Assembly: GCA_015178975.1 (NCBI GenBank)
Contig: WHVD01000188.1
Coordinates: 1-64,000 of the forward strand
DNA from: Hysterangium stoloniferum
Lineage: Eukaryota > Basidiomycota > Agaricomycetes > Hysterangiales > Hysterangiaceae
Reading direction: 5' to 3'
Length of the DNA stretch: 64,000 nt
Shown in pieces: positions 23,375-48,420 of the stretch. Made by a program: the position numbers and the translations under genes. The first letter of the stretch is position 1. The number at the start of each line of letters is the position of its first letter. The notes under the pieces are model-generated. The model ran no database searches, had not been told where the DNA came from, and saw only the letters and a list, made by a program, of their open reading frames with translations.

Positions 23375-25504
23375 TTACTTCGCCCCCGTTCCATACGCCT
23401 CCCACCCCTCTCCTTCGAGCTTCTTAATCTTTCCCTCTACCTCCTCTCTCATTGATTGCATATACGCTTCAACCCTATCCCCGATTTCTGGAATCCCTGT
23501 CCCGAGTATTCGAGCGGCAAGAAGGCCGCCGTTTTGCGCATTATTAATTGCGACTGTTGCGACTGGTATGCCGCGCTGTGATGAGAAGTCGTCGACGTAA
23601 CATATATTTGATAGATAGTGTAGTAGATAGCAGATAATAATCGAACAGCGTGAGTGTGGTTCGATTTAGGAAGAAAAAGGTAGGAGAATTAACGTACCGG
23701 CATTTGCACGATGCTGTGTAACGAATCGACCCCGTCCAAAATGCTCCCTTTGACTGGTACACCAATGACAGGTAACGATGTCAGGGCAGCTACCATCCCT
23801 GGTAAATGGGCTGCGCCACCCGCTCCTGCGATGATAACTCTAACGCCTGTTAAGGTGTCATAAAAAAATTAATAATCGAATCCCCAAGATAATAAAACAA
23901 CAGCGTAAATATGCGACCAACCTCTACCCCTTGCGCCCTTTGCAAATTCCACCATTCTCTCTGGCGTCCTATGCGCACTAACAATCGTGACTTCTGATGG
24001 GACTCGCAACTTGCGCAACACCTCCGCTGCGGCTTTCATAACTGGTAAATCCGAATCTGACCCCATGATGATGCTGACGAGCGGGAAAGGGTGCGGGTGG
24101 GAAGATGATGGGGGCATGGGTGTGTAGAGTGTTATATCGGAAGGAGTTTCTGAGTATGACTCTGATGTTGAACTTGAACACGAAAGGGCCTCAAGCAGTG
24201 GCCTCAACCTATCCCTCGTCTCCGCCTCACACAGTCCCACAATTGTCACATGGCCCATCTTTCTCCCCTTCCTGGTCCCTTTTTTCCCATACAAGTGGAC
24301 CGTCGCCCCAGGGACCTCTAAAGCATTTCTAGCAACCTTATTCACCGACGCGGGGTTTGTGCTGTCACCGATAAGATTAAGCATCACTGCGGAGGGGACT
24401 ATGAGGGATGTGCTGCCAAGGGGCAGGCCGAGAATGGCGCGAAGGTGGTTTTCATATTGGGAGGTGGTACATGCTTCGATGGTATAGTGTCCACTGTTGT
24501 GAGGGCGGGGGGCGATTTCGTTAATCGATATTGTGCCTGTTGTTTTGGAGGAGGAAAAGTGGGGTGGGGTATAAACGAGATATTGACAAAAAAAGTGATT
24601 ATATGTTATTATTAATGATATTGATGGTAATAATTTACGTACCATTTTCCATAATAAACATCTCGACACCAAATACACCTGCACCATCAAATGTCCGGAC
24701 AGCTTCCTTGGCGATGGCTCTTGCCTTCGCATCTACGCACTCACCGCCCTGCATCCTGAACGGTGCAAATACCAAGTGGCAGATATTCTCCTTATGCACT
24801 GTTTCTACAAGAGGATACGCCATCACTTCACCTTCCTTTGTTCTTACGACCATAACGGCCGCCTCCTTGACGAAAGGGACCCAACGCTCAGCATACAATG
24901 GACTCTCCTTTAGCGCATGCAACGCCTCCCGAATTGCTGCGTCATTTCCCTCCCTCAACACAAAATTTCCCCGGCCGTCATATGCACCTGTACGGCTCTT
25001 CAGCATCAATGGCAGGCCTAATTTCTCCACCGCGTGGTTTACGCCGTCTAGGGTCGAATCAACAGGCAGAAATTCAGCAAGAGGCAGTCCATGCTTCAAG
25101 AGATGTTCTTTTTGGACATACTTGTCCTGGATAATGCGCAATGTGCTTGGGGAAGGATGCACCTCCACTCCCGTTTGTTTTTGTATCTCCTCTAAGACAT
25201 CGACGTTAACATGCTCGATTTCAACGGTGATTATGTTGACTTGTGCAGCTAGCTCGCGTATTGCATCGGCAGATGTGAATGCGCCGTCGATGTGTGTGAG
25301 GGGTGCGATTGATGCCGGAGATATTATCTGCTTGGCGGGGCTGTCGTCTCCGATGTCGACATAGGAGATTGGGATGTTGAGGAGAGATGCGGAGGCAGCG
25401 AGCATTCGGCCGAGCTGACCACCACCTTTAACGGTATTTATTGCACAAAATTATTACATCACTATTGTTTACTTACCTAGAACACCGATTTTCTTCTCAT
25501 TCAT
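23375..25504 (-). CDS. ADE2: Phosphoribosylaminoimidazole carboxylase (fused PurK-PurE)
   Basis: This enzyme makes CAIR from AIR in purine synthesis in the cytosol. Five exons on the minus strand: 25504-25477, 25425-24643, 24536-23922, 23846-23698 and 23575-23375. They keep phase and give 591 residues, close to the usual 550-590. All four introns are GT..AG (51-122 bases). The start [17 protein letters not shown] carries the PurK nucleotide-binding motif. The ATP-grasp loop [12 protein letters not shown] is at about residues 152-163. After a Ser/Pro-rich linker (about 390-422) the PurE half begins with [13 protein letters not shown] (about 426) and SAHRTP, then [12 protein letters not shown] and GVPVKGS. 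No damage is seen. It is divergent from RSA3, with 109 bases between start codons. Loss in yeasts gives red adenine auxotrophs. Confidence 0.95.
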
Positions 25505-26646: not shown

Positions 26647-29250
26647 CAATCATGTAGGTATGACCTCTTCTTCTCTGTTAGGCAGAAAGAATCCTGGGAA
26701 CTATCTAGAAGTGGAGGCACAATGATCGCATTTAACAACATAGCCCTCGGCAGGGATAAATGTCGCATCATGTTGCAAAGTTAATGGATATTCGTTACTA
26801 TAATATTGCATTTGTTGCATTTATTAGCTTGTTTGAGACCTATAGGGGCGTTATTGAATGCCCCCTTGACCATGGCAATTCATTAACAGGCATCTCAAAA
26901 ATGATCCTAAATATTTCAAGATTTCCTATCGTCAAGCCATGGAATCTGATTCAGGCTGGCGAGTCGTGAATATTGATCAGGATCAGCAAATATTAATTTT
27001 ATTTATTGAAGATCAAGGAACAAAAGAGAGAATAAAGGGTTAACCCGCAAGGAACTACTTGGTGGCTCCATAAGTGGATTATATACTCAGAACAAGAGCA
27101 GTAATGAATGTGGCCAATATGATTGCTTTCCAAAGACGAGTATAACTTGTTGTTGTTGGAAACTCGATCGTAAAAGCTCTCATAAACGTCTATAGGATTC
27201 CCACATAGATCTTGCTTGCCAATTTTTTGACTGAAGAACTGTGGATCAGTGTTAATGTGAAGAATGGTTTATATGTATGTACAAAACCTAGTCCAATTCG
27301 AGTGCGTGACTGCTCTAGAGGTTGATTCTTTTTAACGATAGATGAGCCAGAATGGGGGTAGAGGGAAAAAACATCGATAAATTCTTGCAATTATATAGGT
27401 CAAAAATGTCTCAGTGGCACTCCTAGATTGATCGACGACATTCAAAACAGCCGGGTTCGCCTATTAGAATAAAATATAGAAACTCCGAATGAACTATAAG
27501 AGCAGTATATAAATTTCGTTTGTGATATCTTGTAGTAAGATTAGGCAAATGAATAAGTAGATACATGAACACTGGGCTACTTATATATGTCTGCTAAACA
27601 ATAGGATATTAAATGGGGCAACAAAAGGGATGGAACAAAGGGAATAAAAAGACAAAAACAAAGGGATATGTGTTACAAGTTTATGTAATGCTCGTATTCC
27701 AACATGGCCACCTGTCAAAGAGGTCATCGAGTATGCATCACAACAAGGGGCAGGCATTGGGGAAATGTATGGGTGAGAATGTTTGCAACATACTTGAAAA
27801 CACAAAGCAGACGGGATGATGAATTCCACTCAAATATGATAAGCACCCAATTGTTGGCAGTTAGGAAACAGTTGGACAGGAAAGTTGGAGGCAGGAAAAT
27901 TGTGAGACTTGGTTGTGCAGGGGGACACATGAAAGACAATTGAGAAGGTCTCGGTGGATTAAGTCCTGGAACGGAATTCTACACATACAAGTCTTCTCAG
28001 TGGAGAGCTCCAACCAATAACTTGTTTGGGTGACTGGTTCATAGATACTAGAAAGGAAATTCATCCTTAGCGGAGAGGTAATAAAGCAGTTATGATATAT
28101 GTTGATGTTTTGCCAGTTCTCAATAGCACAAACACTAGTGAAGCATAAGGTGTGCCACAGATGTTGTACTTTCCTGTCTCCCATTTCAAAATAGCAGTGA
28201 GAGCAGTACATTTGCAATGACTGTTGAAACAGTTGAATAACACTTTGCAGAACACCCCTGTGAGTGTGATTGGAAAGTAAACATTAAGGAGACTTTCCCA
28301 CACCCCACAGTGGACTATACTACTAGGTGCTTATCTAAGCACCTATACAGGAGGTACCGACCTAAGGTAACTCAATACTGCACCTACAGTGCTGGGAAAA
28401 ATACTACAAATATCAGAAAAATATAAAGATCATAATAGACTATGTTAGAGCTGTAGTATCATACTCTAACAATGGCCACCCTATACAATCTTCATTTTAG
28501 CTTTGTGTTCTCAGCAATGGAGTTTTCCTACCTACTACCCCACAGGCTGAGCCTGTGAATAGCACAACAGGAACAACACCATAGACGAGCACTTCCCTTG
28601 TGGATCTAACCCCAAAGGGTGAGAAAAATGAAAATGTTGGGTGAGATGTATATACATTATTTTAATGGACCTCTAATCTCTAATGGAGGACGATGGATTC
28701 ACGGCACATGTCGTTGCGTCACAGAAGGCGGTTGTTTCAAACGTGTTAAGTTATCCGATTACAACTACGACGTAAACCAGAAACCCCCACCTGCAAGAAC
28801 TGCAAGTAGTGGTTTGGGTACAACTCTTGACTTCAACAAGTCAATCCTTTATTAGATTTGCTCTGAGGACTTCGTACAATCAATAGTCAAAGTCCCATTG
28901 TTCATTAACACTCATCGAAAATCAATATACTACTGAGACATTCGGGACGAGATGGCAGCGGGGAGCATGATGGTAGGCTAACTGGGGAGATCTTAGGCCA
29001 CCCATGCCTAAATTGGAGAATTTGGGCCATCAAAAGCCTCATTTTCGTCACAAATGTTACAAACGACAGCGTGTGTTCAGCTATTTTAGGGAAAATAAAT
29101 ATTCCTTACTTTCTGTAACGAACCTTTACCTGAAATTTTGGCCACGCCTCGCAGTTGGATATCGCTCTCGTTGTGCAATATCAAAAACGACTCCTCCAAC
29201 CATAATTGTTTCAATGTATTTACCAAGTGGCCCTGCAGGGTGGTACATAG
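26647..29250 (+). repeat. Interspersed repeat R1, copy A (~2.6 kb)
   Basis: This copy is the reverse complement of 45826-48420. Shared landmarks at one end are ATCATGTA(G/A)GTATGA and the GCAGAAAGAATCCT block. Shared landmarks at the other end are ACGACAGCGTGTGTTC, GGAACTTT-side blocks and CAAGTGGCCCTGCAGG. Copies differ by point changes and indels. A frame with EMYVHYFNGPLMEDD is preserved in the other two copies, but no domain that I recognise (transposase, RT, helicase) is visible. No terminal inverted repeat was found. It is probably a mobile element of unknown class. Confidence 0.7.
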
Positions 29251-31587: not shown

Positions 31588-31885
31588 TGTTGGAATGTAT
31601 ACATCATGAACACTCGGGTATAGACACCCGACACCACCACCATATCGTTGATGGTGCCTGGTGATGGTTGGACCTGCAGCGTATATAAGCTAGTTGACCA
31701 TTGTAGTGTCACCTCAGTCCGTTATACATATACATGACTGAGGTGAGTCAAGATCCTAAGCTAATCACTGATATTGTAACTAATAGTTGCTTTATTAGCT
31801 ATATTACTATTGGGTACAAAATATATGAGTCCGTTATATATATACGTGACTGAGCTATATTACTATTAGGTCTTGCTTTTCAACA
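31588..31885 (+). repeat. Copia LTR, left
   Basis: Contains TATATAAGC (about 31681) and two copies of an inverted motif: CCTCAGTC...GACTGAGG (31707-31744) and GAGTC...GACTGAGC (about 31828-31857). The same motif occurs near 1463. Confidence 0.88.
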
Positions 31886-33602
31886 GGTTATGGGCCCCGG
31901 TCGTGCCAGATAACACAAATGATGAAACACCGTCCAATCGTGTTTTCAAGCCACAAGACCCTTTCATACATTCTCATACCTAATTGAAACAAACTTTCTG
32001 CACAGGCTGCAAATTCATCTTCAAAATGCTCTTCACCCCACATTCCCTTTAGGGGACGCAAAGTTCTGACACATGGTGTCAATCACCCATTCCTACCATG
32101 TCGCCACGACAATTATCATTTGAACATACGTCCATCACATCTACCACAATTCTATTCGAATATTAAACGGAACAAAATTTTACATTATCCTCTTCCAACG
32201 TCATCTCTTTGTACCCCACCAGCTTTTTTGAGATAGCAGTCTTGCTGAATCTATACCTCTCGATTGTCGCTACACTTACTCGACTACCTTGAGGATATCT
32301 CATGCATGATGACTCAACTCAAGGACTGGATGACCAATATGGCAACATCTTTGAATTAATTACATAAACTAGGATATATTTCATCCACAAGACTTTAAAC
32401 CCATTCTACAATCAACAACTTATATAATGTAACTTGTCACCATTAATTCGACAGGCAGCTAGGAGCTTTTCTTTGTGACAAACTGATCATATCTTGTCTC
32501 ACGTTACCCCAATTTATTTGGTTGCGTGTTTCCTTTTTAGGTCTCCGGCGGGGAACTACGTAACAGGAGGAGTAGAGCAGTGAGGAGGAGCATTGAGAGT
32601 TAAGACACTGCAAAATGGGAAGGAGAGCAGTGAGGAGGTGCATTGAGAAGAGAACACCGCACCACAATTGCGAAAGTGGCCCTCTTTGTTTAGGTTCACC
32701 ATGTAATGGTGTCTGTCCATTGTTCACCACACTTGTTGCGTGCGCATCATATCCAGCATCCTTCAACACCTCTTTCAACTCACTTTGGTGCATAAGCGCA
32801 TCCACCCCATTGTCTTATTGCCACCACATCTATTGCGTCTGCGCTCAACATTCTTGACACTGTCCCATTATTCCAAATTCTGCCCACGTATACTCATCAT
32901 TTCATCTATCGCCTCTGTGCAAATTTTTTAGTGTACTATTTGCACACATACAATACCACTTGTCGCCATTAATTTGCAAAGACCCAACCTATTCGATTTC
33001 GTGGCCGTCTAGGCTTACTTTAGGACACAATGTGACAGGAGGAGTAGAGTGGTGAGGAGGAGCATTGGGAATTGACACACCACACAAATGAAAGGAGGTG
33101 GCCCACGTATTTACATTCAGTGGACTTTCCACATTCATGTCTACCATCCTTTCAACATCTCTTTCCCCCTCTCTGACACAGAAGCCGAGGCACCAGGTTG
33201 TACACACCAATTTCCATAGGGTACGTCAGTATGGCATCTGAGCGAAGCAGCGGGGTGCTCCTCGTCCTTTCAATTAACAATGGAAAGCGCAAGTGGGATT
33301 CCCAAGGTTCAGTGGACCTACAGTTTATTTCATCCCCAGTCAAAAGGAGATCATTCTAGCTCCCTTGAAGTAATGCTGTCCCACTTGCTGCATACTGTTA
33401 CACTCATCCAAAGATGAGAACTACAGCAACTTGTTGAGAAATCTATCTTCCTCACATTGTTATATTTTATTTTATTTTCCTGACTCATGACGGACCCAGA
33501 CACAGAAGCCAGCGGCCGCCTTATCATGACATCTACACTCCCTGTTCCACTTCTCCAGACATCATTGACATATATTGAGACCAAGCTGGACAAGAACATT
33601 GT

Positions 33603-33870
33603 CTGTCATATGTACCCCATGGTACATTTTATCGCCTCTGAGTGAACTGTCACATGTGCCCCATGGTGCATTTTATTGCCTCCGAGCGAACTGTCATATG
33701 TACCCCATGGTACATTTTATCACCGAGAGAACTGTCACATGTGCCCCATGGTGCATTCTATCACCTCTGAGTGAACTATCATATGTACCCCATAGTACAT
33801 TTTATCGCCTCTGAGCGACCCATCATCATTGTCCCATGGCACAATCTATTGCTTCTGAGCAAACTGTTCC
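33603..33870 (+). repeat. 44-base minisatellite, about six copies
   Basis: The unit reads GTCA(T/C)ATGT(A/G)CCCCATGG, then T(A/G)CATTTTAT(C/T)GCCTC(T/C)GAG(T/C)GAACT, with one shorter copy of about 41 bases. Copies alternate between ATATGTACC and ACATGTGCC versions, which suggests that a pair of units was duplicated together. The core TCGCCTCTGAGCG is shared with 12395-12580. Confidence 0.8.
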
Positions 33871-33925
33871 GCCATCATTTCTCTGTCAGCTATGTCTTTT
33901 TTTTGGGATCACCTCTTTCCAATGT

Positions 33926-34494
33926 TGTTAAGTGCCATGTCGGGAACTTATCCCGGAACTATCGGAAAGTCACCGGGAAGTCGGAAACTCGTGGATAGGG
34001 TCAGGACGTCAGCTTCAGCTTATGTGCTGCGCCTCTACGCAAACGCTCAATGTCCTTAATTTCGGAAGTAAAACTTACAACAGAAGATATGGATATTCAG
34101 AGTTCCGAAGAGTTCCGAATATCGAGCATACAGAAAGATGGGAGGAGGAATAAGAAACTAAGTCGATATCAGATCTAAGGTAAAGTACAAATTCGCAGAA
34201 ACTAATATAAGTCTACTCGTTATTGTACATACTACAAACTAAGACCATAATAAGACGGAAACGGAAGTGTTCTTAAAACGGAAATACAATAAGACATATC
34301 AGGGAGACAATATTCCGAAATGGGAATACAACAAACAAACAAGTGAATACTTGTCAACGGACAAATTACCACATGCGGAACAAGGGAAGAATGCGGATGA
34401 TATGGTAACTGTGATGTTCCGTAGTCGGGGATTGGAAGTTGGAAGTCAGAGATCGGAAGTTGGATATTGAAACATCTGGGAACGGGTCGTAACA
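33926..34494 (-). repeat. 3' LTR of the nested chromovirus
   Basis: 569 bases, starts TGTTAAGTG and ends CGTAACA. It pairs with 40768-41332 (565 bases). About 26 substitutions and one 4-base indel separate them; nearly all are C/T or G/A, many at CG/TG/CA positions. Confidence 0.92.
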
Positions 34495-34680
34495 GTACCC
34501 CTCTGTTAGGCCGAAATCCCATAGAGGCGATTAGGTACTGAGTGATTGAAGCGATGGCTGATTATTATGTGTCATGAAATTTACGCAATTCTGGAGGTGA
34601 GAGTTTCGGCTGATGTGCTGAGTATAAAAACCTTCAAATATTCGAATTAACGTTTTTGTTTCTTTATCCACAACTTGTAT

Positions 34681-35788
34681 GTTGATTCGTCGGCCGTTAT
34701 TCATCACTACCCCGGAAGACTCAGATACCGAAATTGCCGTTCTACAAAAGATGTTGAAGGTCGCAGAACTTCAACAAAAACGACAAAGGATGGAGGAGTT
34801 GAAGCGATGACAAGAGGAGGAGGAGAAGGCATTGATGCAGGAGTTGAAAGATGCGGAAAAACAGGAGTTGGAGCGGGTGAAGACAGAGGCGGAGGCTCAG
34901 AAAAGGAAGGATGAGTTGGAAAGGTTACAGCGGGAAGCAGAGGTGGCAAAAAAACTCAAGGAGGTAAGGGAAGGAAAGGTAAGTTCCGTCCATAGATTCC
35001 ATGATTTCAACCGATAACTATTGGGTCCAGCGAAAAGCCATGGAGGTGGAGGTAGAGGGAGAAGCTGGACCTTCGAGTCCTAAAGTAAGTACATCTACAA
35101 AAGACCGGTAATTGGTTAACTTCCGAAACAGAAGCCAAAAGTCAAGGCTCCGGAACGGATGGAAGTGGTCCATGAAAATCCGTGTTATCGATGTTCCATA
35201 CGGAGTATGATGTGTTGGAAACAGAAGGTAAAATGGGGTGGAACTTGCTATCCCTGCACGGTCCTCAAACTTCCGTGCACTCTTGCTGCGAAAAGGGTTC
35301 CGAAAGGTGAGAAGGCTCAGAAGGCTAACGACGTGGAAGGTTCGGGAACAGCTAGGGCTGCAGAGACTGAGGTGCCGAAATCGGACAGTACGGGCATTGA
35401 GCTCCTCAAGGACACCGTCAACGCATTGGTTTTTATCGGGACGGAAGTCATGAAAATGCGGGACACAATGAATCGCCATAATGATATCCAGGAGAAAGGT
35501 TTCCGTTCGTTGATCCGGAACTTCTGGAGGCAAAATGAATTCCTGGAGAAGATAATGGTTAGCATCAGTGTGATTGCAGTATCCGAGAGATTTTCCGATA
35601 AGGCACGGGAAAAGCCTAATGATTTGTTGGTGGAATGTGTCGAACAGAGGTGGGAGTCAGGGAAAGGGCCGGAAGAATCGGAGAGTGAGGATGAAGAGGT
35701 GCAGGATATGGTGGAAAGTGCGGAAATTGCTGATGAGACGGAAGTCGGGATGGAAAGTGGATTTGGGGTATCGGAGACTTTAAGATAG
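34681..35788 (+). mobile_element. Antisense accessory ORF of the chromovirus with Zn2Cys6 spacing
   Basis: This region lies between the chromodomain and the 3' LTR and reads opposite to gag-pol. The longest frame, 35159-35788 (209 residues), opens with C-x2-C-x6-C-x10-C-x2-C-x6-C (residues 9-40), exactly the spacing of fungal Zn(II)2Cys6 clusters. Its C-terminal half is acidic. The sequence before it (34681-35150) has a strong charged coiled-coil pattern (EAEAQKRKDELERLQREAE). Two stretches there look like short GT..AG introns (about 34979-35031 and 35084-35131). The region shows at most a break or two. Whether it is expressed is unknown. Confidence 0.6.
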
Positions 35789-35890
35789 TCCTAATAATAT
35801 TTTTTTTTTGACTTGCAAAACCTAAAAACGAGTGTGATATCGGAAGTGTCGGGAGTGTCGGAAACTGAACAGAAAGAAAACAGAAAAGGA

Positions 35891-36181
35891 TTAAAGTGAT
35901 GATAAAGGTCCGGGTTTGTTTGGATAAGCTGTGTGGAAGTCAGTAACAATTTCCATAGCGTGTCCAAGTTCTGTGGCCAATATCCATGAAGTTTCCTCGT
36001 CGGTACCTTCATAGCCTGCCCATTTGACTAAATAGAGCAATTTATAAGTACGTCGGCGATTGTCGATTTTAGAATCCAAAATTTCGGAAACTTCAAATTC
36101 AGGTTCTCCGTCAATAATGACCGGAGGGGACGGAGGTTGAATATGTTCCGGGATTTTGTTAGGAACACAGGGTTCTAACAT
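35891..36181 (-). mobile_element. Chromodomain end of the chromovirus pol
   Basis: The frame contains EFEVSEILDSKIDNRRRTY, LYLVKWAGY and ETSW, the aromatic cage and strand pattern of a chromodomain. In chromoviruses this domain follows integrase and directs insertion to marked chromatin. Confidence 0.85.
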
Positions 36182-36208
36182 GGAAATGTGGAAAACGGGG
36201 TGAACTGC

Positions 36209-37532
36209 TCACATACTATCGGGAAGTCGGAGAGTCCATGAGAGTGAACCGGCTTGTGCTATAATTTCAAAAGGTCCTAAGAATTTCTCAGCGAGTTTTT
36301 TAGAAGGTCGGGTAGTACGGAAGAATTGAGCTTTTACAAAAACCTGATCACTGATTTTAAAGTTAGGAGGCGGGATCCTGTTTTTGTCTGTGGAACGTTG
36401 ATAATATTCCTGTGTGGAAGAAATAGCTTTCCGAAGTTCTTGATGTAATTCGTCGAGGTCGGTAATAAATTCTTGAGCACGGACAGAAGCCAAATCTCGT
36501 TCGGAATGTACAGTGAGATTCAGATTATAGCCTTTGTTGGCGAAGAAAGGAGATACGCCGGTAGTTGCATTCGGAGAGTTATTGTAGGTGAATTCCGCGA
36601 TCGGGAGAAGGGATTTCCAGTTGTCCTGTTGATAATTGCAATAGATGCGGAGATATTGTTCCAATGTTTGATTTACACATTCCGTTTGTCCATCACCTTC
36701 CGGGTGATATCCCGAGGTGAAGTGTAATTTCATGTCGAGGGCTTTTCCGAGGGCCTGGAAGAAATGGGAGACGAACTTGGAGCCTCGATCAGAAGTTACA
36801 TGAGACGGAACTCCGTGCTTGGAAAATACGGGAATAATGAAAAAGTTCCGCTAATTGTAGGGACGTGATTGATTCATGAGTGGGTATGAAAATGCCTTGT
36901 TTCGAGAATCGATCCACAACAACTAGAATGGATGTAAAGCCTTCAGAAGTCGGGAGTTGTTCGATAAAGTCCATGGAAATTGAATTCCAGGGTTTTTCCG
37001 GTATCGGGAGTTGCTTGAGAAGGCCGTACGGCTTATGCCTCTGGGTCTTAGAGCGTAAGCAGGTGGTGCATGACTTACAGAATTGGGTTACGAAATCTCG
37101 GAGGTTGGGCCAAGTATATTCTCTACGGATTAAACCAAGAGTATTGTTAATGCCGTAATGTCCGGAGATTGGATGATCGTGTTTATACTGAAGTACGCGG
37201 AGTCGGAGATTGTTGGAATCTGGAACGTAGATACGTCCATTGAGATGGATAAAACCTTGAGAGTCCTGTGACCATTGAGGTTGGTCCGGATTGTCAGGAA
37301 CTTCTAGGTGTGGCTTGAGAACCGGATCGGAAGTGAGTGCGGAAAAGATATCTTGATGTAACTGTTCAATGTCCATAATCATGACGCTACGCATAATTGG
37401 ATAGTAGAGGGAAGTTGCTCGGATAGATGCGGAAAGTTGTTGCGTTGTAAAAACTGGTTTCAAGTTATGCGGATTAACAACAGCATAATTACTTTCCCCC
37501 TCTCTAGGATAGACGTCCCATCGTCGAGTCAT
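36209..37532 (-). mobile_element. Integrase region of the chromovirus
   Basis: The zinc-binding part has H...HPISGHYG, then CKSCTTCLRSK. The catalytic core starts WNSISMDFIEQLPTSEG and ILVVVDRFSK, and continues with HPEGDGQTECVNQTLEQYLR at 36709-36650. It is part of a fossil pol. Confidence 0.88.
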
Positions 37533-37562
37533 GGCATCTGGTTTTCCACCAAGACGTCCGGG

Positions 37563-39170
37563 TCAGAAACGGATAATCATATTGAAAGCGGAAAGGAATT
37601 CAGACCAGCGGGCTTGCCGGCGGGGTAAAAGTTTAGTGGTAGAAAAATATTCGAGATTTTTGTGATCGGTAACAATGTCAACGGGAGTTGAGGAACCTTC
37701 GAGATAATGGCGCCAATGTTTAAAAGCTTCAAAAATTGCCAAAAGTTCCTTATCATGAACATCGTAGTTGAGTTCAGATACTGAAAGTGTCCGAGAAAGA
37801 AATGCGACCGGATGAATTTCACCGTCAGAATCTTGAATGGAAAGAATCGTGGCAATTGCATAATCGGAAGCATCGGTTTCCACAATAATCGGAACATCAG
37901 GTTTCCAATGGGAAAGGATCGGGGCAGAAGTGAAAGCATTTTTTAAAGTCTGAAAAGCGGAGTGGCATTTGTCATCAAAGACCCATGGTTGAGTTTTATG
38001 GGTCAGACGAGTGAGCGGTACTATAATATCCGAGTAGTTCCGAATAAAACGATGATAAAAGTTGGCGAAACCTAAAAAAGACTGAATATCCTTGACTTTC
38101 TGTGGTTCGGGCCAATCACGGACAACTTGAACTTTGGTTTCATCCATACGGAGACCATCAGGTCCGATAATGAAACCTAAGTATTCAATAGAATCCATGT
38201 CAAAGTAGCATTTTTTACCATTGGCGAAAAGACCGTTTTTACGGAGTCTTTGGAAAACTTCACGGACTTGTTCGTCGTGAAGAGCGGGATCTTCAGAAAA
38301 TACCAAAATGTCGTCCAAATAGACTATAACATATACATCAAGCATGTTGGAAAATATATCATTAACAAAACGTTGAAAAGCGGAAGGGGCATTGGTAAGG
38401 CCGAACGGCATAACCAACCATTCAAAGGATCCATAACGAGTCCGAAAAGCAGTTTTCCATTCATCGCCCTCAGCAATTTGGACCAAATGATAGGCGTGTT
38501 TGAGGTCTATTTTGGTGTAGATCCGAGCTTTCCGTGGGGCGTCAAGTAAATCGGTAACGAGTGGAAGTGGATACTTGTCTTTCCGTGTGATGGAATTTAA
38601 TCCTCTGAAATCGACACAGAGTCGAAGGGAGCCGTCCTTCTTTCTGACGAAAAGGACGGGTGCTCCATACGGAGACTTTGAGGGACGGATAAAACCTATC
38701 GACAAATGTTCATCCAGGAACTCCCGAATAGACGAAAGTTCTGATTGGGATAATGGGTAAATAGGTCCTAACGGAGGGTTTGAACCGGGCTCAATATTGA
38801 TTTTTAAGTCGTAAGGCCTATGTGATGCAAGCCGGTCAGCTTTTTGCTTACTGAAAATGTCCGCGAAATCATGGTATTTTTCGGGAACTCCTTCCAGATC
38901 GGCTTTTAGCTCGGATAATTCTGGAGTCCCAAAATGTCCAGATGCTTCATCAACTTTTAAGCTGATTGAAAAACACTGCGAACCATCCAGTTTACTCGCC
39001 CTAACAAATGCCGAAGCATTGATAAGAGAGATTTTTGGAGGTGCGGAGGTTTTGGTAGAAGCCAGAGGTCCCGTAGATGCCGAAAAGGCGTTGGCCGGAA
39101 GAGACGCTGCAGGAGGAACCGAAGTGTTGGGAATTCGGAAATTAATACTGCCCAATACCCAGTCAATCAA
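37563..39170 (-). mobile_element. Reverse transcriptase and RNase H region of the chromovirus
   Basis: A frame of 535 residues. RT motifs visible are LCVDFRGLN, KIDLKHAYH, PFGLTNAPSAFQRF and YLDDILVFSED; RNase H follows with VETDASDYAI and TDHKNLEYF. The start of the frame overlaps the end of the protease region. Confidence 0.93.
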
Positions 39171-39576
39171 CGGATTATATCGGGTGAGCCAGTTGTATCC
39201 AAGAACTACCGAAAGCTAGAGTCCAACTGTGTTACGAAAAAAGTAACCGTCTGGGATGTTCCACAAGGGAACCGGATAGACATGTCGCAGGCTTGAGTAA
39301 TTGCCGTATTGCTAGTGCCGTCAAACAGACGCAAGGAAATTGCGGGAACAGAATGGAGTTTCAGATTATGTTTCGTGGCAAAGGTGGTATCTACAAAACA
39401 GTGTGTGGAGCCGGAATCTATTAGAGCTCAGAACACTAAATTTCCAAGAAAGTCAGAAACGAGTTTTACAAATAATGAATCGGGATTAGAGAGAGCGGAC
39501 ACGTTGAGACGGATAACCTCGGAAACACAGAGAGAGTCAATGCAACCCTCTGTCCGTGCAGATTCCAGAGGGTTGC

Positions 39577-40733
39577 TTACTCTTTTTTCGGCTCCATGGC
39601 GGGTTTTTCCTTGGACGTTGTAGTCGTAGTGGAAGTTGCTGTGCGGGCCTTGGAAGAGTTAGATTCAACGGTACAGTCGGAAACCTTGTGTCCGCCTTTC
39701 CCGCAGAAAAGGCAGAGGTCGTTATCCATACATCGTTGTTTCTCCTTCGGGGTGAGTTTACCGTCGGTACCCAACAAATGGGAAATGTCGGGTTCGTCGG
39801 AAGTGGACTGTTTTTCCTTATTGGATTTCTTGTCTTTCTTCCGGTCGGAGTTTGATTTGCCAGTATTAGTGCCAGAGTTGCCAGTGTTATTGCCTGAGTT
39901 ATCGCCAGAAGACTTGCTAGTTGACGCCAGATGTTTGAGCTTTCATCTGCATGAGTTGGAGAGTTTTCGGCTTCCCATCTTTGCAGATTTTGTCTTTAAG
40001 GCGTGAAGGAAGTCCCATATAGAAATGGTGTCTGAGGGCGGAATCGTGTCCCATCCACATCGTGCGGCGAGGGTATTGAACTTGACGAGATAATCGGAAA
40101 CTCGTTGATTGTCCTTCATCTTGAGCGTCATTAATTCATTTTCCGCTTCGCCAGTTTGATCGTAAGGTCCAAAATTAGTTTCCAGTTCTTCCACAGTGTC
40201 CCAGTCGTCGAGCCATACGGGTGTCTCGTCGGATATTCCAGATAGTCCGGGTTCGAACCAATCTTGAGCGGTATCCTTGAGATAAGAGAGTGCAAAATTG
40301 ACTTTTCGACTGTCGGATTTAAATGCATTGGGTCGATCAGGAAACTGAAACAGCATTGAAGAAGGAAATTCTTCAATTTTTTCGGATCCTTGCCGGTAAA
40401 TGGTTCGGGTTCTTTGACTCCGGTGTGGGAAGATTCTTTACTATCCTCAGCGGATTTCAAATAGTCAGCGAATTTCACAATGGAGTTGATAAACAACATT
40501 TCAGTCGGTTTGTCGGAAGATTTCTTTTTCGATGTCTCCGGCTGATCTTCTGCTTTGTTGTTGGAAGTGTGGGGAACATTGGTGTCCTTTGTTACCTCGG
40601 TAACCTCCTCGGTAACTTCTTCGACTGAAGCTGATGTTGTCGGCTGAAAAGGGGTTTCGGATTGAGTGGTGTAAAGTTGCAACGGGGATTGAAGTTGGGA
40701 TGGTCCCTCGGCAGCTTTGCGTTTGGGACCCAT
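39577..40733 (-). mobile_element. Gag region of the chromovirus with CCHC knuckle
   Basis: The N-terminal part begins MGPKRKAAEGPSQLQ. The middle has the common gag phrases FALSYLKDTAQDWFEPGL and NFGPYDQTGEAENEL. The knuckle CLFCGKGGHKVSDC lies near the end. The same gag family is found, more decayed, at 57871-58308. Confidence 0.85.
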
Positions 40734-40767
40734 GATGAGCGAGCCGCAGAGTTGAGATCTGATATAC

Positions 40768-41332
40768 TGTTAAGTGCTGTGTCGGGAACTTATTCCGGAA
40801 CTATCAGAAAGTCACTGGGAAGTCGGAAACTTGTGGATAGGGTCAGGACGTCGGCTTCAGCTTATGTGCTGCGCCTCTACGCAAACACTCAATGTCCTTA
40901 ATTTCGGAAGTAAAACTTACAACGGAAGATATGGATATTCAGAGTTCCGAAGAGTTCCGAATATCGAGCGTACAGAAAGATGGGAGGAGGAATAAGAAAC
41001 TAAGTCGATATCAGATCTAAGGTAAAGTACAAATTCGTGGAAACTAATATAAGTCTACTTGTTATTGTACTACAAACTAAGACCATAATAAGACGGAAAC
41101 GGAAGTGTTCTTAAAACGGAAATACAATAAGACATATTAGGGAGACAATATTCCGAAACGGGAATACAACAAACAAATGAGTGAATACTTGTCAATGGAC
41201 AAATTACCAAATGTGGAACAAGGGAAGAATGCGGATGATATGGTAACTGTGATGTTCCGTAGTCGGGGATCGGAAGTCGGAAGTCGGAGATCGGAACTCG
41301 GATATTGAAACATCCGGGAACGGGTCGTAACA
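40768..41332 (-). repeat. 5' LTR of the nested chromovirus
   Basis: 565 bases with the same termini as 33926-34494. Going into the element on the minus strand, the next bases (TATATCAGATC) resemble a primer-binding site for initiator tRNA. Confidence 0.92.
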
Positions 41333-42074
41333 AATGTCTGCTATTGGCGACAAAAATATTGGCACATTTATAAGTCTACCTTTTTAGGGACAAAATTTAT
41401 GGCAGAAGATTTTTTTTTTTTTTGGAACTGCCTGTTCCAAGTTGACCGCGACCACCCCTGTCTGGCCAGTGATGAAACTTACGGCAATATATCGAGCAAA
41501 ACAAAAAACTCGAATTTTATGGAACCACTTGTTCCAAGTCCACCACACCACCTCTGAGTGGCCAATTCGGCGACAAAATTTATAGCACAATTTTTTTCTG
41601 ACCAAAGCTATGTGAGTTGAGGAGGAGAATCTCAGTCCTGTCTCACACAGCTTCGTTCCAGTTGACCCTGGCGGATCAGTATTTCAATTTCTCGAAGCTC
41701 CACATCATCTTTGTTCGACTTCGCCCGTTTCTTCATCACCCCCACTTCATTATCAATTCCCCATCTATTCATATTGAATTCATACCGGATTTTCACATCT
41801 AGCTTCTTATATCCAGACATAAGACTCTTATCTCGTGGCCCACTATTCGAGGCATCCTGCTGCCCTCATTGGCAAAAGTCACGAACCCCACATCTCCTGA
41901 AGCGGAATCTGCCATTTCCATCAGTTCTACGACCCAGCAAGCTTCATTTTGGACCTACATTATACGACCCAAAAATCCATCTCACTTTCACCTAGCACCT
42001 ACTGACTTTTGTCCAACTTCATGGTTTCCTCGATCACCAGTAGTGAAGACTCAGTTGTTCATGCTGAGGAGGAG

Positions 42075-42372
42075 TGTTGGAATGTATACATCATGAACAC
42101 TCGGGTATAGACACCCGACACCACCACCATATCGTTGATGGTGCCTGGTGATGGTTGGACCTGCAGCGTATATAAGCTAGTTGACCATTGTAGTGTCACC
42201 TCAGTCCATTATACATATACGTGACTGAGGTGAGTCAAGATCCTAAGCTAATCACTGATACTGTAACTAATAGTTGCTTTATTAGCTATATTACTATTAG
42301 GTACAAAATATATGAGTCCGTTATACATATACATGACTGAGCTATATTACTATTAGGTCTTGCTTTTCAACA
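42075..42372 (+). repeat. Copia LTR, right
   Basis: 298 bases, ends TTTTCAACA, then the target duplication CACGG. Preceded by GCTGAGGAGGAG, the purine tract for plus-strand priming. About 6 differences from the left LTR. Confidence 0.9.
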
Positions 42373-43090
42373 CACGGAGCAAGGCGGAAGCCGATCTGAA
42401 GCGGCGCCAAACCCTCGAATCCATCATTTTCTATCCTCATCCTCCCATCCATCCCGGCCATCCCCCCGATGTGAATTTGTCCAAGTCGACGGGTGGCCCT
42501 GCAACCCCCGCAACATCAAATACGGGAACCCAGAGTTTCACTGGGTGGTTGCTCACGTTGCTGCAGAGTGCCTGCAGATGCACCTCGGCCTCATGATGCG
42601 GGGAAGCGGGTATTACCTGAACACCATTGAAAGAGCGGAGATCGCATTCAAGTTCTTCACTGCCGACTGTCCCTTCCGTTACTCAAAGCAAACCCTCATG
42701 TGCCATCCCATGAAGCGTGTGCTCAAGACGCCGCTTTTTTCCTACATACCAATGCGGAGGCTCCTGCAGCATGTCGAGGCGTGCCATGATCCTTACCACA
42801 GGGGTAGGAGCGACCTGGGAAAAGAAGAGGAGCGCAAGAGGGAGCTGGACCTCAGAGAATTCCGGGTGTTACGAGAGGCATTGGGATACAGCGAGAACTT
42901 CGTCAGTATTCACAGATAGAGACCCCCCGGATACTGTATATGCACGGTGAAGACTCTCTGGCGTGTCGAAGGATAGATCGATGGGTCGCCACGTTCGTCG
43001 TTACACTTTGGTTATCGCGGTCGGGAGGAATCACGTGGGTCTAGGTCCGTTTCTCCATAAATAAGATACAAAATTTCTGCCTTGTATTTT

Positions 43091-43925
43091 TACGTCGGAT
43101 TTGTGATCGGATAATTAGACACGTTTGAAACAACCGCCTTCTGTGACGCAAGGACATGTGCCGTGAATTCATCGTCCTCCATTAGAGGTCCATTAAAATA
43201 ATGTACATACATCTCACACAACATTTTCATTGTTCTCACCCGTTGGCCGTTGGGTGAGTTAGACCTACAAGGGATGTGTTCGTCCATGGTGTTGTTCCCG
43301 ATGTGCCATTCACAGGCTCAACCTGTGCGATAGTGGATAAAAAAACTCCATTACTGAGGACACAAAGTCAAAACGAAGATTGGATAGGGTGGCCATTGCA
43401 AATGTACTGCTCTCACTGCTATTTTGGAGTGGGAGACAGGAAAGTACAACTTCCGTGGCCCACCTTATGCTTCCCTACTGTTTGTGCTATTGAGAAGTGG
43501 AAAAACATCAACATATATAATAACTGCTTTAATACATCTCCGCTAAGGACGAATATCCTTTCTAGTATCTATGAACCAGTCACCCAAACAAGTTATTGCT
43601 TGGATCTCTCCACTGAGAAGACTTGTATGCGTATGATTCCGTTCAAGGACTTAATCCGCCGATACCTTCTCAATTGTCTTTCATGTGTTCCCCTGCGCGA
43701 CCCGAGTCTCACCATTTTCCTCCCCCAAATTCACTGGTCCACTGTTTCCCAACTGCCAACAATTGAGCCATCTTACCACATTCGAGTCGAATTGATCATC
43801 CCGTGTGCCTTATGTTTTTCAAGTATGTTGCAAACATTTCACTCGCACGTTTCCCCAATGCCAGTCCCCTGTGTTGATGCATAATCGTTGATCTCTTTGT
43901 CAGGTGGCCAACCCGGCTGTTTTAA
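43091..43925 (-). repeat. Repeat R1, copy B (partial)
   Basis: In the orientation of copy C and matching its 46320-47340 part. It has the uninterrupted target sequence CACAACATTTTC near 43215, where copy C carries the TRIM. A frame reading MKMLCEMYVHYFNGPLMEDD is kept. Confidence 0.75.
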
Positions 43926-45825: not shown

Positions 45826-46472
45826 GTACCATCCTGCAGGGCCACTTGGCAAATACGTTGAAACAATTATGGTTGGAGGAGTCATTTTTCATATTACACA
45901 ACGTTCAGCCCAGGAGCGATATCCAACTGTGAGGCGCGGCCAAAATTTCAGGTAAAGGTTCGTTACAGAAAGTAAGGAATATTTATTTTCCCTAAAATAG
46001 CCGAACACACGCTGTCGCTTGTAACATTTGTGACGAAAATAAGGATTCTGATGGCCCAAATTCTCCAATTTCGGCGTGGGCGACCTGAGATCTCTCCAGT
46101 TAGCCTACCATCATGCTCCCCGCTGCCATCTCGTCCCGAATGTCTCAGTAGTATATTGAATTTCGATGAGTGTTAATGAACAATGGGACTTTCAACTATT
46201 GATAGTACGAGTCCTAAGAGCAAATCTAATAAAGCATCGACTGGTTGAAGTCGAGAGTAGTCGACATGACACCCAAACCACTACTTGCAGTTCTTGCAGG
46301 TAGGGGTTTCTGGGTTACGTCGGAGTTGTGATCGGATAACTAGACACGTTTGAAGCAGCCGCCTTCTGTGACGCAAGGACATGTACCGTGAATCCATCGT
46401 CCTCCATTAGAGGTCCATTAAAATAATGTACATACATCTCATGCAACATTTGTTAAAAGTGTAGATAATGAA

Positions 46473-46544
46473 TGGCCAGACTGGGGATTGAACCCAGGGC
46501 TTCTGCATATATAGCAGGGGTGTTAACCATTACACCACCTGACC
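46473..46544 (-). ncRNA. tRNA-like segment in the TRIM LTR (first copy)
   Basis: 72 bases that fold as a cloverleaf: a 7-bp acceptor stem with wobble pairs (GGTCAGG/TCTGGCC), a 4-bp D stem (GTGT/ACAC), a T arm CTGGG-TTCAATC-CCCAG, and an anticodon stem with 4 of 5 pairs. A box TGGTGTAATGG and B box GGTTCAATCC both fit the pol III consensus. The anticodon loop is TATATAT, with A instead of T at position 33, so a working tRNA is doubtful. A promoter role is more likely. Confidence 0.6.
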
Positions 46545-46755
46545 CTGGGAAGCACTGCTAGCATTACTCAATCTAACACACTCCCTTAATGCTAGCACTC
46601 AACTATACTATAAGCAGATATAGGTCCTCTCTGGCTCTTTTGTCCAGACTTGTCCACTATACCACACACAAATATAGCTGTTCACTCTACACACAGGAAC
46701 CATGCCCTATAGCACACAGCGGGGCCCATAACCTGTTAAAAGTGTAGATAATGAA

Positions 46756-46827
46756 TGGCCAGACTGGGGATTGAACCCAGGGCTTCTGCATATATAGCAG
46801 GGGTGTTAACCATTACACCACCTGACC
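46756..46827 (-). ncRNA. tRNA-like segment in the TRIM LTR (second copy)
   Basis: Identical in sequence to 46473-46544, as the LTRs are identical. Confidence 0.6.
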
Positions 46828-48420
46828 CTGGGAAGCACTGCTAGCATTACTCAATCTAACAACATTTTTATTTTTCTTACCCTTTGGGTGAGTTGGACCC
46901 ACAAGGGAAGTGTTCGTCTATGGCGTTGTTCCCGATGTGCCATTCACAGGCTCAACCTGTGGGATAGTAGATAAAAAAAACCCCATACTGAGAACACAAA
47001 GTTAAAACGAAGATTGTATAGGGTGGCCATTGCAAATGTACTGCTTCCACTGCTATTTGTGAGTGGTAGACAAGAAAGTACAACTTCCGTGGCACACACT
47101 ATGCTTTCCCAGTGCTTGTGCTATAGAAAAGTGGAAAGACATCAACATGTGTAATAACTGCTCTATTACATCTCCGCCGCGGACGAATCCTTTCTAGTAT
47201 CTATGAACCAGTCACCCAAACACGTTATTGGCTGGAGCTCTACACTGAGAAGACTTGTATGCGTAGGATTCCGTTCAAGGACTTAATCCGCCGATACCTT
47301 CTCAGCCGGGTTGGCCACCTGTGAATGAGATCATCGATTATAACACATGAAGGCCATTGAACGTCGTTAACAGATTGCGATCAATCTAGGAGTGCCACTG
47401 AGATATTTTTTACCTATATAATTGCAAGAATTTAACGATGTTTTTTCTCTCTACCCGCATTCTGGCTTATCTATCGTTAAAAAGAATCAACTTCTAGAGC
47501 AGTCATGCACTCAAATTGGAATATATTTTGTACATATATAAACCATTCTTTACATTACATAACACTGATCCACAGTTCTTCAGTCAAAAAATTGGCAAGA
47601 AAGTATACTTTTGATACGAAAAGTGCACGCGAAGTTCGAATAAACAAAGTAACGCAAAAGTTCGTTATATATTTTGAGATACAACATCTGAGGTATATAT
47701 ATATATATACAATTATACAATACAGCTCCAATATATATGTCATGCGATGTATATGAGATAATTGGAGCGAATGACGAAACAAGCATAAATGGAAATACAT
47801 GTTCACACAACCTGTTTTGGTAATCGATTGACGGAATACGCGCAGGCTTGCAGTTCCAACAGCAAGATCTATGTTGCATGCCCAACTTGAATCCGAGAGA
47901 CGTTTATGAGACATTTACCATCGATTTTTCAACAATAACAAGTTATACTCGTTTCTGGAAAACAATCATATTGGCCACTCATGGATAGCACTGGGTGGAA
48001 GTCACGCGCGGCTAGCCTCCTTTCCGGGTTAACCCTTTATTCTCTCTCCTGTTTCTTGATCTTCAATAAATAAAATTGATCTTTGCGGATGCTGATCGAT
48101 ATTCACGACTCGCCAACCTGAAGCCGATTCAATGGCTTGACGATGATCATAAGAAATCCTGAAATATTGAGGATCATTTTGAGATGTCTGTTAATGAATT
48201 GCCATGGTCAAAGATGCATTCAATAACGCTCCTATAGGTCTCAAACAAGTTAATAAATGCAGCAAATGCAATACTACATAGTACCGAATATCCATTAATT
48301 TTGCAACATGATGCGACATTTATCCCTGCCGAGGGCTATCATGTTAAATGCGATCATTGTGATTCCACTAGGATTCTTTCTGCCTGACAGAGAAGAAGAG
48401 ATCATACTTACATGATTTGT

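Follow-up and report, generated by a model that had tools for sequence, protein, structure and literature searches.

A complete miniature LTR element of 411 bp lies on the minus strand at 46451–46861 of the 64,000-nucleotide stretch of Hysterangium stoloniferum DNA analysed here, which we refer to as the window. Its family, H1, with LTRs of 128 bp and an internal region of 155 bp, belongs to a kind already described, Helenus, within which it is new; the assignment is by structure, the published families having been compared by description only. H1 is probably a young Helenus-type TRIM family, with an RNA that would be made by RNA polymerase III (pol III) and moved by the machinery of Copia elements. 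In the following paragraphs we discuss the anatomy of the element, its copies in the genome, its connections with Copia-type elements and its relation to known systems.

In the orientation of the element the 5′ LTR (46734–46861) and the 3′ LTR (46451–46578) are both 128 bp long, begin and end as TGTTAGATTG...CTTTTAACA, and are 100% identical on repeat comparison. The pentanucleotide ACATT is duplicated at the two edges (46446–46450 and 46862–46866). The first internal bases on the minus strand, GGTTATGGGCCCCGC (46719–46733), form the primer-binding site, a perfect 15-nt match to the complement of the anticodon arm of host tRNA-iMet; the gene used for this comparison, locus L111, is one of three places matching the search pattern. 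The polypurine tract region, TTAAGGGAGTG, adjoins the 3′ LTR at 46579–46589 and is assigned purely by position and composition. No stop-to-stop frame longer than 56 amino acids was found overlapping 46451–46861. The preliminary description had already proposed a 411-base element with identical 128-base LTRs, a primer site, a purine tract and a 5-base duplication, and the analysis confirms it. Because the tRNA-like part described below, the primer site and the purine tract all occupy the minus strand, the whole element is assigned to that strand and the tRNA-like part is in sense orientation.

Two paralogous empty sites in the window were recognized by alignment with the joined flanks. The first (43146–43310, plus strand) has the same flanks, and both it and the second (28540–28720, minus strand) possess a single ACATT and no element, from which it follows that the 411 bp were inserted as a unit. 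The flanks of the element are part of a longer repeat, the direct and inverted window copies of which (43090–43672, 46271–47304, 28059–28819 and 45826–46192) are 81–95% alike. Elsewhere in the window, at 23869–25405 on the minus strand, are pieces of a phosphoribosylaminoimidazole carboxylase gene, with ATP-grasp, PurK_C and AIRC on one strand.

Each LTR carries a 72-base tRNA-like segment, at 46756–46827 in the 5′ LTR and 46473–46544 in the 3′ LTR, preceded by 34 bp of the LTR. ARAGORN called both segments tRNA-Ile(tat) on the minus strand, and Rfam matched the segment to RF00005 at 46.8 bits, the cut-off being 29. Folded alone, the 72-mer forms a cloverleaf of −26.7 kcal/mol (z −2.2; 7 of 200 shuffles were equally good) with near-perfect stems and a D arm that looks Gln-like. 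The pol III A box is characterized by the consensus TRGYNNANNGG and the B box by GGTTCRANNCC. Read against these, the A box of the element is TGGTGTAATGG at LTR positions 42–52 (46810–46820 in the 5′ LTR, 46527–46537 in the 3′ LTR), and the B box is GGTTCAATCCC at LTR positions 85–95 (46767–46777 and 46484–46494, respectively). The cloverleaf with its two boxes, noted at the outset in each LTR, is thus confirmed by gene calling, Rfam and folding. This anatomy agrees with the further proposal of a tRNA-type pol III promoter housed in the LTR of a TRIM, and from it we infer that the H1 LTR would be transcribed by pol III.

A search of the 111-Mb genome for copies of the LTR, as proposed in the preliminary description, gave 261 matches to a 23-nt LTR core at no more than three mismatches and none to the reversed pattern; the element is therefore neither a chance occurrence nor an isolated duplication. 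With the whole LTR as query, at least 41 matches at 99–100% were found, one of them a 37-base piece, when 40 of 541 first-look candidates were scored, and with the internal region 40 of 130 candidates were scored, all listed ones being 99–100% alike. Ninety loci were fetched, a biased set since it is composed of the best matches and those with an exact core, and yielded 62 insertion rows; these represent at most 61 H1 insertions, because the element at L052, cut by another copy, occupies two rows. Equal 5-bp flanks are present in 49 of the 62 rows (25 two-LTR elements, 19 solo LTRs, four three-LTR tandems and one with a truncated LTR), with 48 distinct duplications among them, and 7 of the 13 rows lacking such flanks are truncated. 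Gap-free LTRs could be compared in 26 two-LTR elements, and in 21 of these the pair is identical, which indicates that the family is young.

There is no sign that H1 targets tRNA genes: ARAGORN made four calls in 124 flanks of up to 1 kb, three of these being tRNA-Ile(tat) copies of H1 itself and the fourth having a 752-bp intron. Nor was self-priming apparent, the longest LTR complement among stretches that begin within the first 20 internal bases being 5 nt. Matches to tRNAs were clustered on contigs C112 (0.91–1.22 Mb), C68 (0.74–0.85 Mb), C526 (0.27–0.29 Mb) and C98 (0.13 Mb). Seven loci from these clusters (L091–L096 and L099) are intron-bearing tRNA-Lys(ctt), some paired approximately 420 bp apart, and the pattern of CA followed by the primer site is absent from all seven.

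The 95 full-length LTR copies available, from 59 of the 62 insertion rows, were fetched by similarity to the window LTR. The tRNA-like part, the absence of which from most copies had been named as a possible objection, is present in all 95, a weak test given how they were fetched. The B box is exact in 83 and altered at a free position only in 8 more; the A box is exact in 93, a count that is inflated because 30 of the 90 loci were found by a pattern spanning LTR positions 43–65, the listed rows of which were all exact. Positions 43–65 were for the same reason left out of the comparison of variants. Among the 49 tRNA-like sites, 4 are affected by variants occurring in at least two insertions, against 8 of the 56 remaining sites, a difference that is not significant (p = 0.37); singletons are evenly spread, at 13 of 49 and 13 of 56, respectively (p = 0.82). 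These counts neither favour nor contradict constraint on the boxes, since the copies are young and nearly identical, and box decay is not measurable among copies so alike.

Each of the 95 LTR copies has a T4 tract 5–15 nt past its tRNA-like part, at LTR positions 111–114 only in 4, at 121–124 only in 50 and at both in 41. In the window copy it occupies positions 121–124 (46738–46741 in the 5′ LTR and 46455–46458 in the 3′ LTR), and there is no other T4 on the sense strand. Since 819 of 2000 shuffles contained at least one T4 per unit, its presence is not unusual for the composition, and only its placement is suggestive. Some Copia-type LTRs, including those at window 31588–31885 and at L101, also have a T4 near their ends, so the tract in H1 may be no pol III signal. 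It is possibly a leaky pol III terminator. In the passages of PMC5356446 on termination, T4 is described as sufficient in humans, T5 in fission yeast and T6 in budding yeast; read-through is frequent, averaging approximately 10% in budding yeast and exceeding 40% at some genes, figures that come from yeasts other than the Hysterangium host. Because the T4 tract precedes the primer site in the 5′ LTR, the pol III model needs such read-through, and the question arises of how pol III could get past this tract in the 5′ LTR and still terminate at its counterpart in the 3′ LTR; a leaky T4 would allow both.

In the mechanism that we propose, the A and B boxes would recruit pol III, and transcription would start close to the 5′ boundary of the tRNA-like part, at about LTR base 25–34. 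Pol III would often stop at the T4 near the 3′ end of the LTR, giving a short RNA of approximately 80–100 nt, and some passes would read through to the same tract in the 3′ LTR; the resulting genomic RNA, approximately 360–380 nt long, would carry a repeated R of 80–100 nt. A Copia-type Gag would package this genomic RNA, the 5′ part of tRNA-iMet would serve as its primer, and Copia enzymes would carry out reverse transcription and integration.

The junction of CA with the primer site occurs 856 times in the genome (control, 0), and in 137 of these it is preceded by a B box. Of 100 junctions listed, 46 were compared, and nine of these are followed within 6 kb by a Copia reverse transcriptase that is one of the best 150 matches. 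In Copia-type loci L100–L110, all of which share the primer site, ARAGORN finds no tRNA-like part. The window itself contains a larger LTR element on the plus strand (31588–42372), with 298-bp LTRs that are 98% alike; its target duplication is CACGG, and it has the primer site, GGTTATGGGCCCCGG, in common with H1. Other repeats break it up, among them a Gypsy-type reverse transcriptase located between direct repeats at approximately 33926–34494 and 40768–41332, and it also encloses, at 33596–33853, a short array of tandem 85-nt units (spacing 44, 85, 44).

One locus, L009, joins the two kinds of element. Its order is GCCAT, a 120-bp Copia-type LTR, the primer site, the H1 internal region, an H1 LTR, the primer site once more, a 265-aa Copia-type gag frame, the same Copia-type LTR again and GCCAT. 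The gag frame matches PF14223 at 102 bits, together with a zinc knuckle barely above the cut-off. L009 alone, among 42 distinct places with an H1 internal region, has an upstream neighbour other than an H1-like LTR end; one further place, L050, is truncated at its upstream side. The two outer LTRs have diverged at 4 of their 120 bases, while the H1 internal region and LTR are 99.4% and 99.2% identical, respectively, to the window copy; an older element has thus probably received the H1 unit via its primer site. Another copy of the same Copia-type family, L106, is 96% identical over 425 bp. No polymerase frame was seen in L009, and its Copia-type element is thus probably not autonomous. The primer site and duplication length that H1 shares with Copia, and the one hybrid that it forms (L009), point to Copia as the mobiliser of H1.

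A second family, H2, is present at L097, where it is in tandem, and at L098. Its LTR is 251 bp, its internal region 67 bp and its primer site as in H1; the tRNA-like part was called tRNA-Tyr(ata). The LTRs of H1 and H2 can be aligned from the tRNA-like part onwards, the 11-nt B box being identical, and TTTTCTA follows the tRNA-like part in H2 and in 33 of 59 H1 rows, namely those with T at LTR position 113. No match to the H1 loci was found by blastn with the portion of H2 upstream of base 170. The genome contains 207 exact H2 A-box cores, and many of the 100 listed were seen by eye to lie on contigs with Copia reverse-transcriptase matches (for example C14, C35, C60, C137 and C182).

Hybrids of H2 were placed mostly by coordinates, on contigs crowded with H2 and Copia elements. 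At L098 a foreign LTR stands in front of the H2 internal region, and at 7 of the 40 scored places of this foreign LTR in the genome (247 candidates) the junction of the H2 purine tract and LTR comes 53–57 bases further on. Among the matches listed, 79 such purine-tract/LTR junctions follow a tRNA-bearing LTR in 55 cases, this foreign LTR in 7 and neither in 17. On C475 a Copia reverse-transcriptase match lies 2880 bp beyond the foreign LTR, and on C441 and C522 such a match precedes it by 868 bp; at three other places the gaps to such a match are 62, 4491 and 4593 bp. The reciprocal arrangement, an H2 LTR joined to the primer site with no H2 internal region behind it, accounts for 6 of 27 junctions. 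Four of these are followed, on their own strand, by a reverse-transcriptase match among those listed, at 2890 bp (C14), 2886 bp (C35), 4143 bp (C35) and 2300 bp (C256), and two (C2 and C113) have no listed match downstream on that strand. The frames are 1386 aa on C14 and 1385 aa on C35 (that with the 2886-bp gap), and on C13 a 1384-aa frame lies 2868 bp after its primer site. A chain on C2, from 477491 to L098 (481500–482400), reads H2 LTR, primer site, approximately 4 kb, foreign LTR, primer site, H2 internal region and H2 LTR.

We tentatively propose, with slightly more doubt than confidence, that Helenus and Copia-type elements exchange LTRs at their common initiator-tRNA primer site, and that on C14 and C35 a Copia frame stands behind an H2 LTR; as this last point rests on coordinates, we treat it as a lead and not as a result. 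If it is true, an autonomous Copia element on these two contigs stands behind an LTR with a tRNA-type pol III promoter. The route would be transfer, or recombination in which DNA copies of helper and parasite meet at the primer site. Chimeras might arise by intermolecular plus-strand transfer via the primer site within a shared particle or by later DNA recombination, and the age gap in L009 favours the latter for that copy. Kojima argued (PMC10886601) that TRIMp3 elements, the pol III-transcribed TRIMs, probably do not have long stretches of LTR in common with their autonomous partners. Chimeras joined at the primer site are physical evidence for which elements could mobilise Helenus.

The pol III model has to be weighed against a reading in which the tRNA-like part is a passenger: polymerase II would make the RNA, starting in neighbouring genes or at a cryptic promoter in the LTR, Copia would move it, and the tRNA-like part would persist only because the family is young. 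We think this unlikely. Conservation of boxes is reported for Helenus LTRs in Kojima's account (PMC10886601), and in this genome H1 and H2 both keep their A and B boxes despite having no detectable similarity in the upstream LTR; moreover, just 34 bp precede the tRNA-like part in the window LTR. What lends the passenger reading its weight is that the H1 copies are too alike for decay to be measured, that the sampled Copia-type loci with the same primer site (L100–L110) have no tRNA-like part detectable by ARAGORN, and that a T4 ahead of the primer site would hinder pol III.

It is far less probable that the LTRs carry working tRNA-Ile(UAU) genes and that the element spreads functional tRNAs. 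The ARAGORN call, the Rfam score of 46.8 bits and the near-perfect stems are what such genes would display, but a U at position 33 is nearly universal in tRNA anticodon loops and the loop here, UAUAUAU, has an A in its place. The loop is also changed in some insertions (LTR positions 67–72), and the tRNA-like part of H2 in the same genome, tRNA-Tyr(ata), has another anticodon; on these three grounds a working tRNA was rejected. The isotypes, furthermore, disagree in many Helenus families as presented by Kojima (PMC10886601). An assembly artefact or a local duplication of a tRNA gene, in place of a mobile element, is vanishingly improbable and is refuted by the equal 5-bp flanks in 49 of 62 rows, the two empty sites, and 261 cores on many contigs.

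Among known systems, tRNA-derived SINEs (SINE2) resemble H1 in their tRNA-derived pol III A and B boxes, but they have neither LTRs nor a primer site and use LINE machinery. Ajax, from nemerteans, is also a TRIM, duplicates 5 bp of target and has a small-RNA promoter within its LTR; it differs from H1 in that the promoter is a partial 5S rRNA and the primer the 3′ end of tRNA-Leu. Cassandra of plants, in the treatment of PMC7215508, is likewise a TRIM with a promoter and terminator derived from a pol III gene in its LTR, and forms tandem arrays. It has 5S rRNA where H1 has a tRNA, its transcripts have been reported, and its RNA-end repeat is 18 bp as quoted by Kojima (PMC10886601), against the 80–100 nt predicted for H1. 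An LTR derived from 5S rRNA was not detected in the window, where only RF00005 reached the Rfam cut-off.

The preliminary description suggested a possibly undescribed fungal counterpart of Cassandra, a suggestion that does not hold, since TRIMs with a tRNA-like LTR were named Helenus by Kojima in 2024 (PMC10886601). In that paper they are reported from Pucciniales (113 families), Agaricomycetes, animals and one plant (Selaginella); a later meeting report repeats the class in one sentence (PMC12859917). Within the main text of the former, the LTRs are not well conserved between families, and in fungi primer sites from the anticodon loop of tRNA-iMet are dominant, the duplications are 5 bp and Copia is the likely helper, as judged from the similarity of the primer sites, the length of the duplications and an internal region shared in one case. 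That main text uses "terminat" only about Cassandra and lacks "TTTT", and neither primer-site chimeras with Copia nor a Helenus T4 tract were seen in it. H1 possesses every Helenus structural feature tested (size, a tRNA-like LTR with boxes, primer site and purine tract), having two LTRs, no coding frame and a length of 411 bp in a range of 311–1263 bp, and it agrees with the fungal type in its anticodon-loop tRNA primer and 5-bp duplications. The likeness to fungal Helenus as characterized there (PMC10886601) comprises a TRIM of 311–1263 bp, an LTR with a tRNA-like part bearing A and B boxes, a 5-bp duplication, Copia as likely helper, solo LTRs, and a tRNA mostly judged non-functional. As a young, high-copy Helenus family, H1 makes pol III transcription and dependence on Copia testable in one organism.
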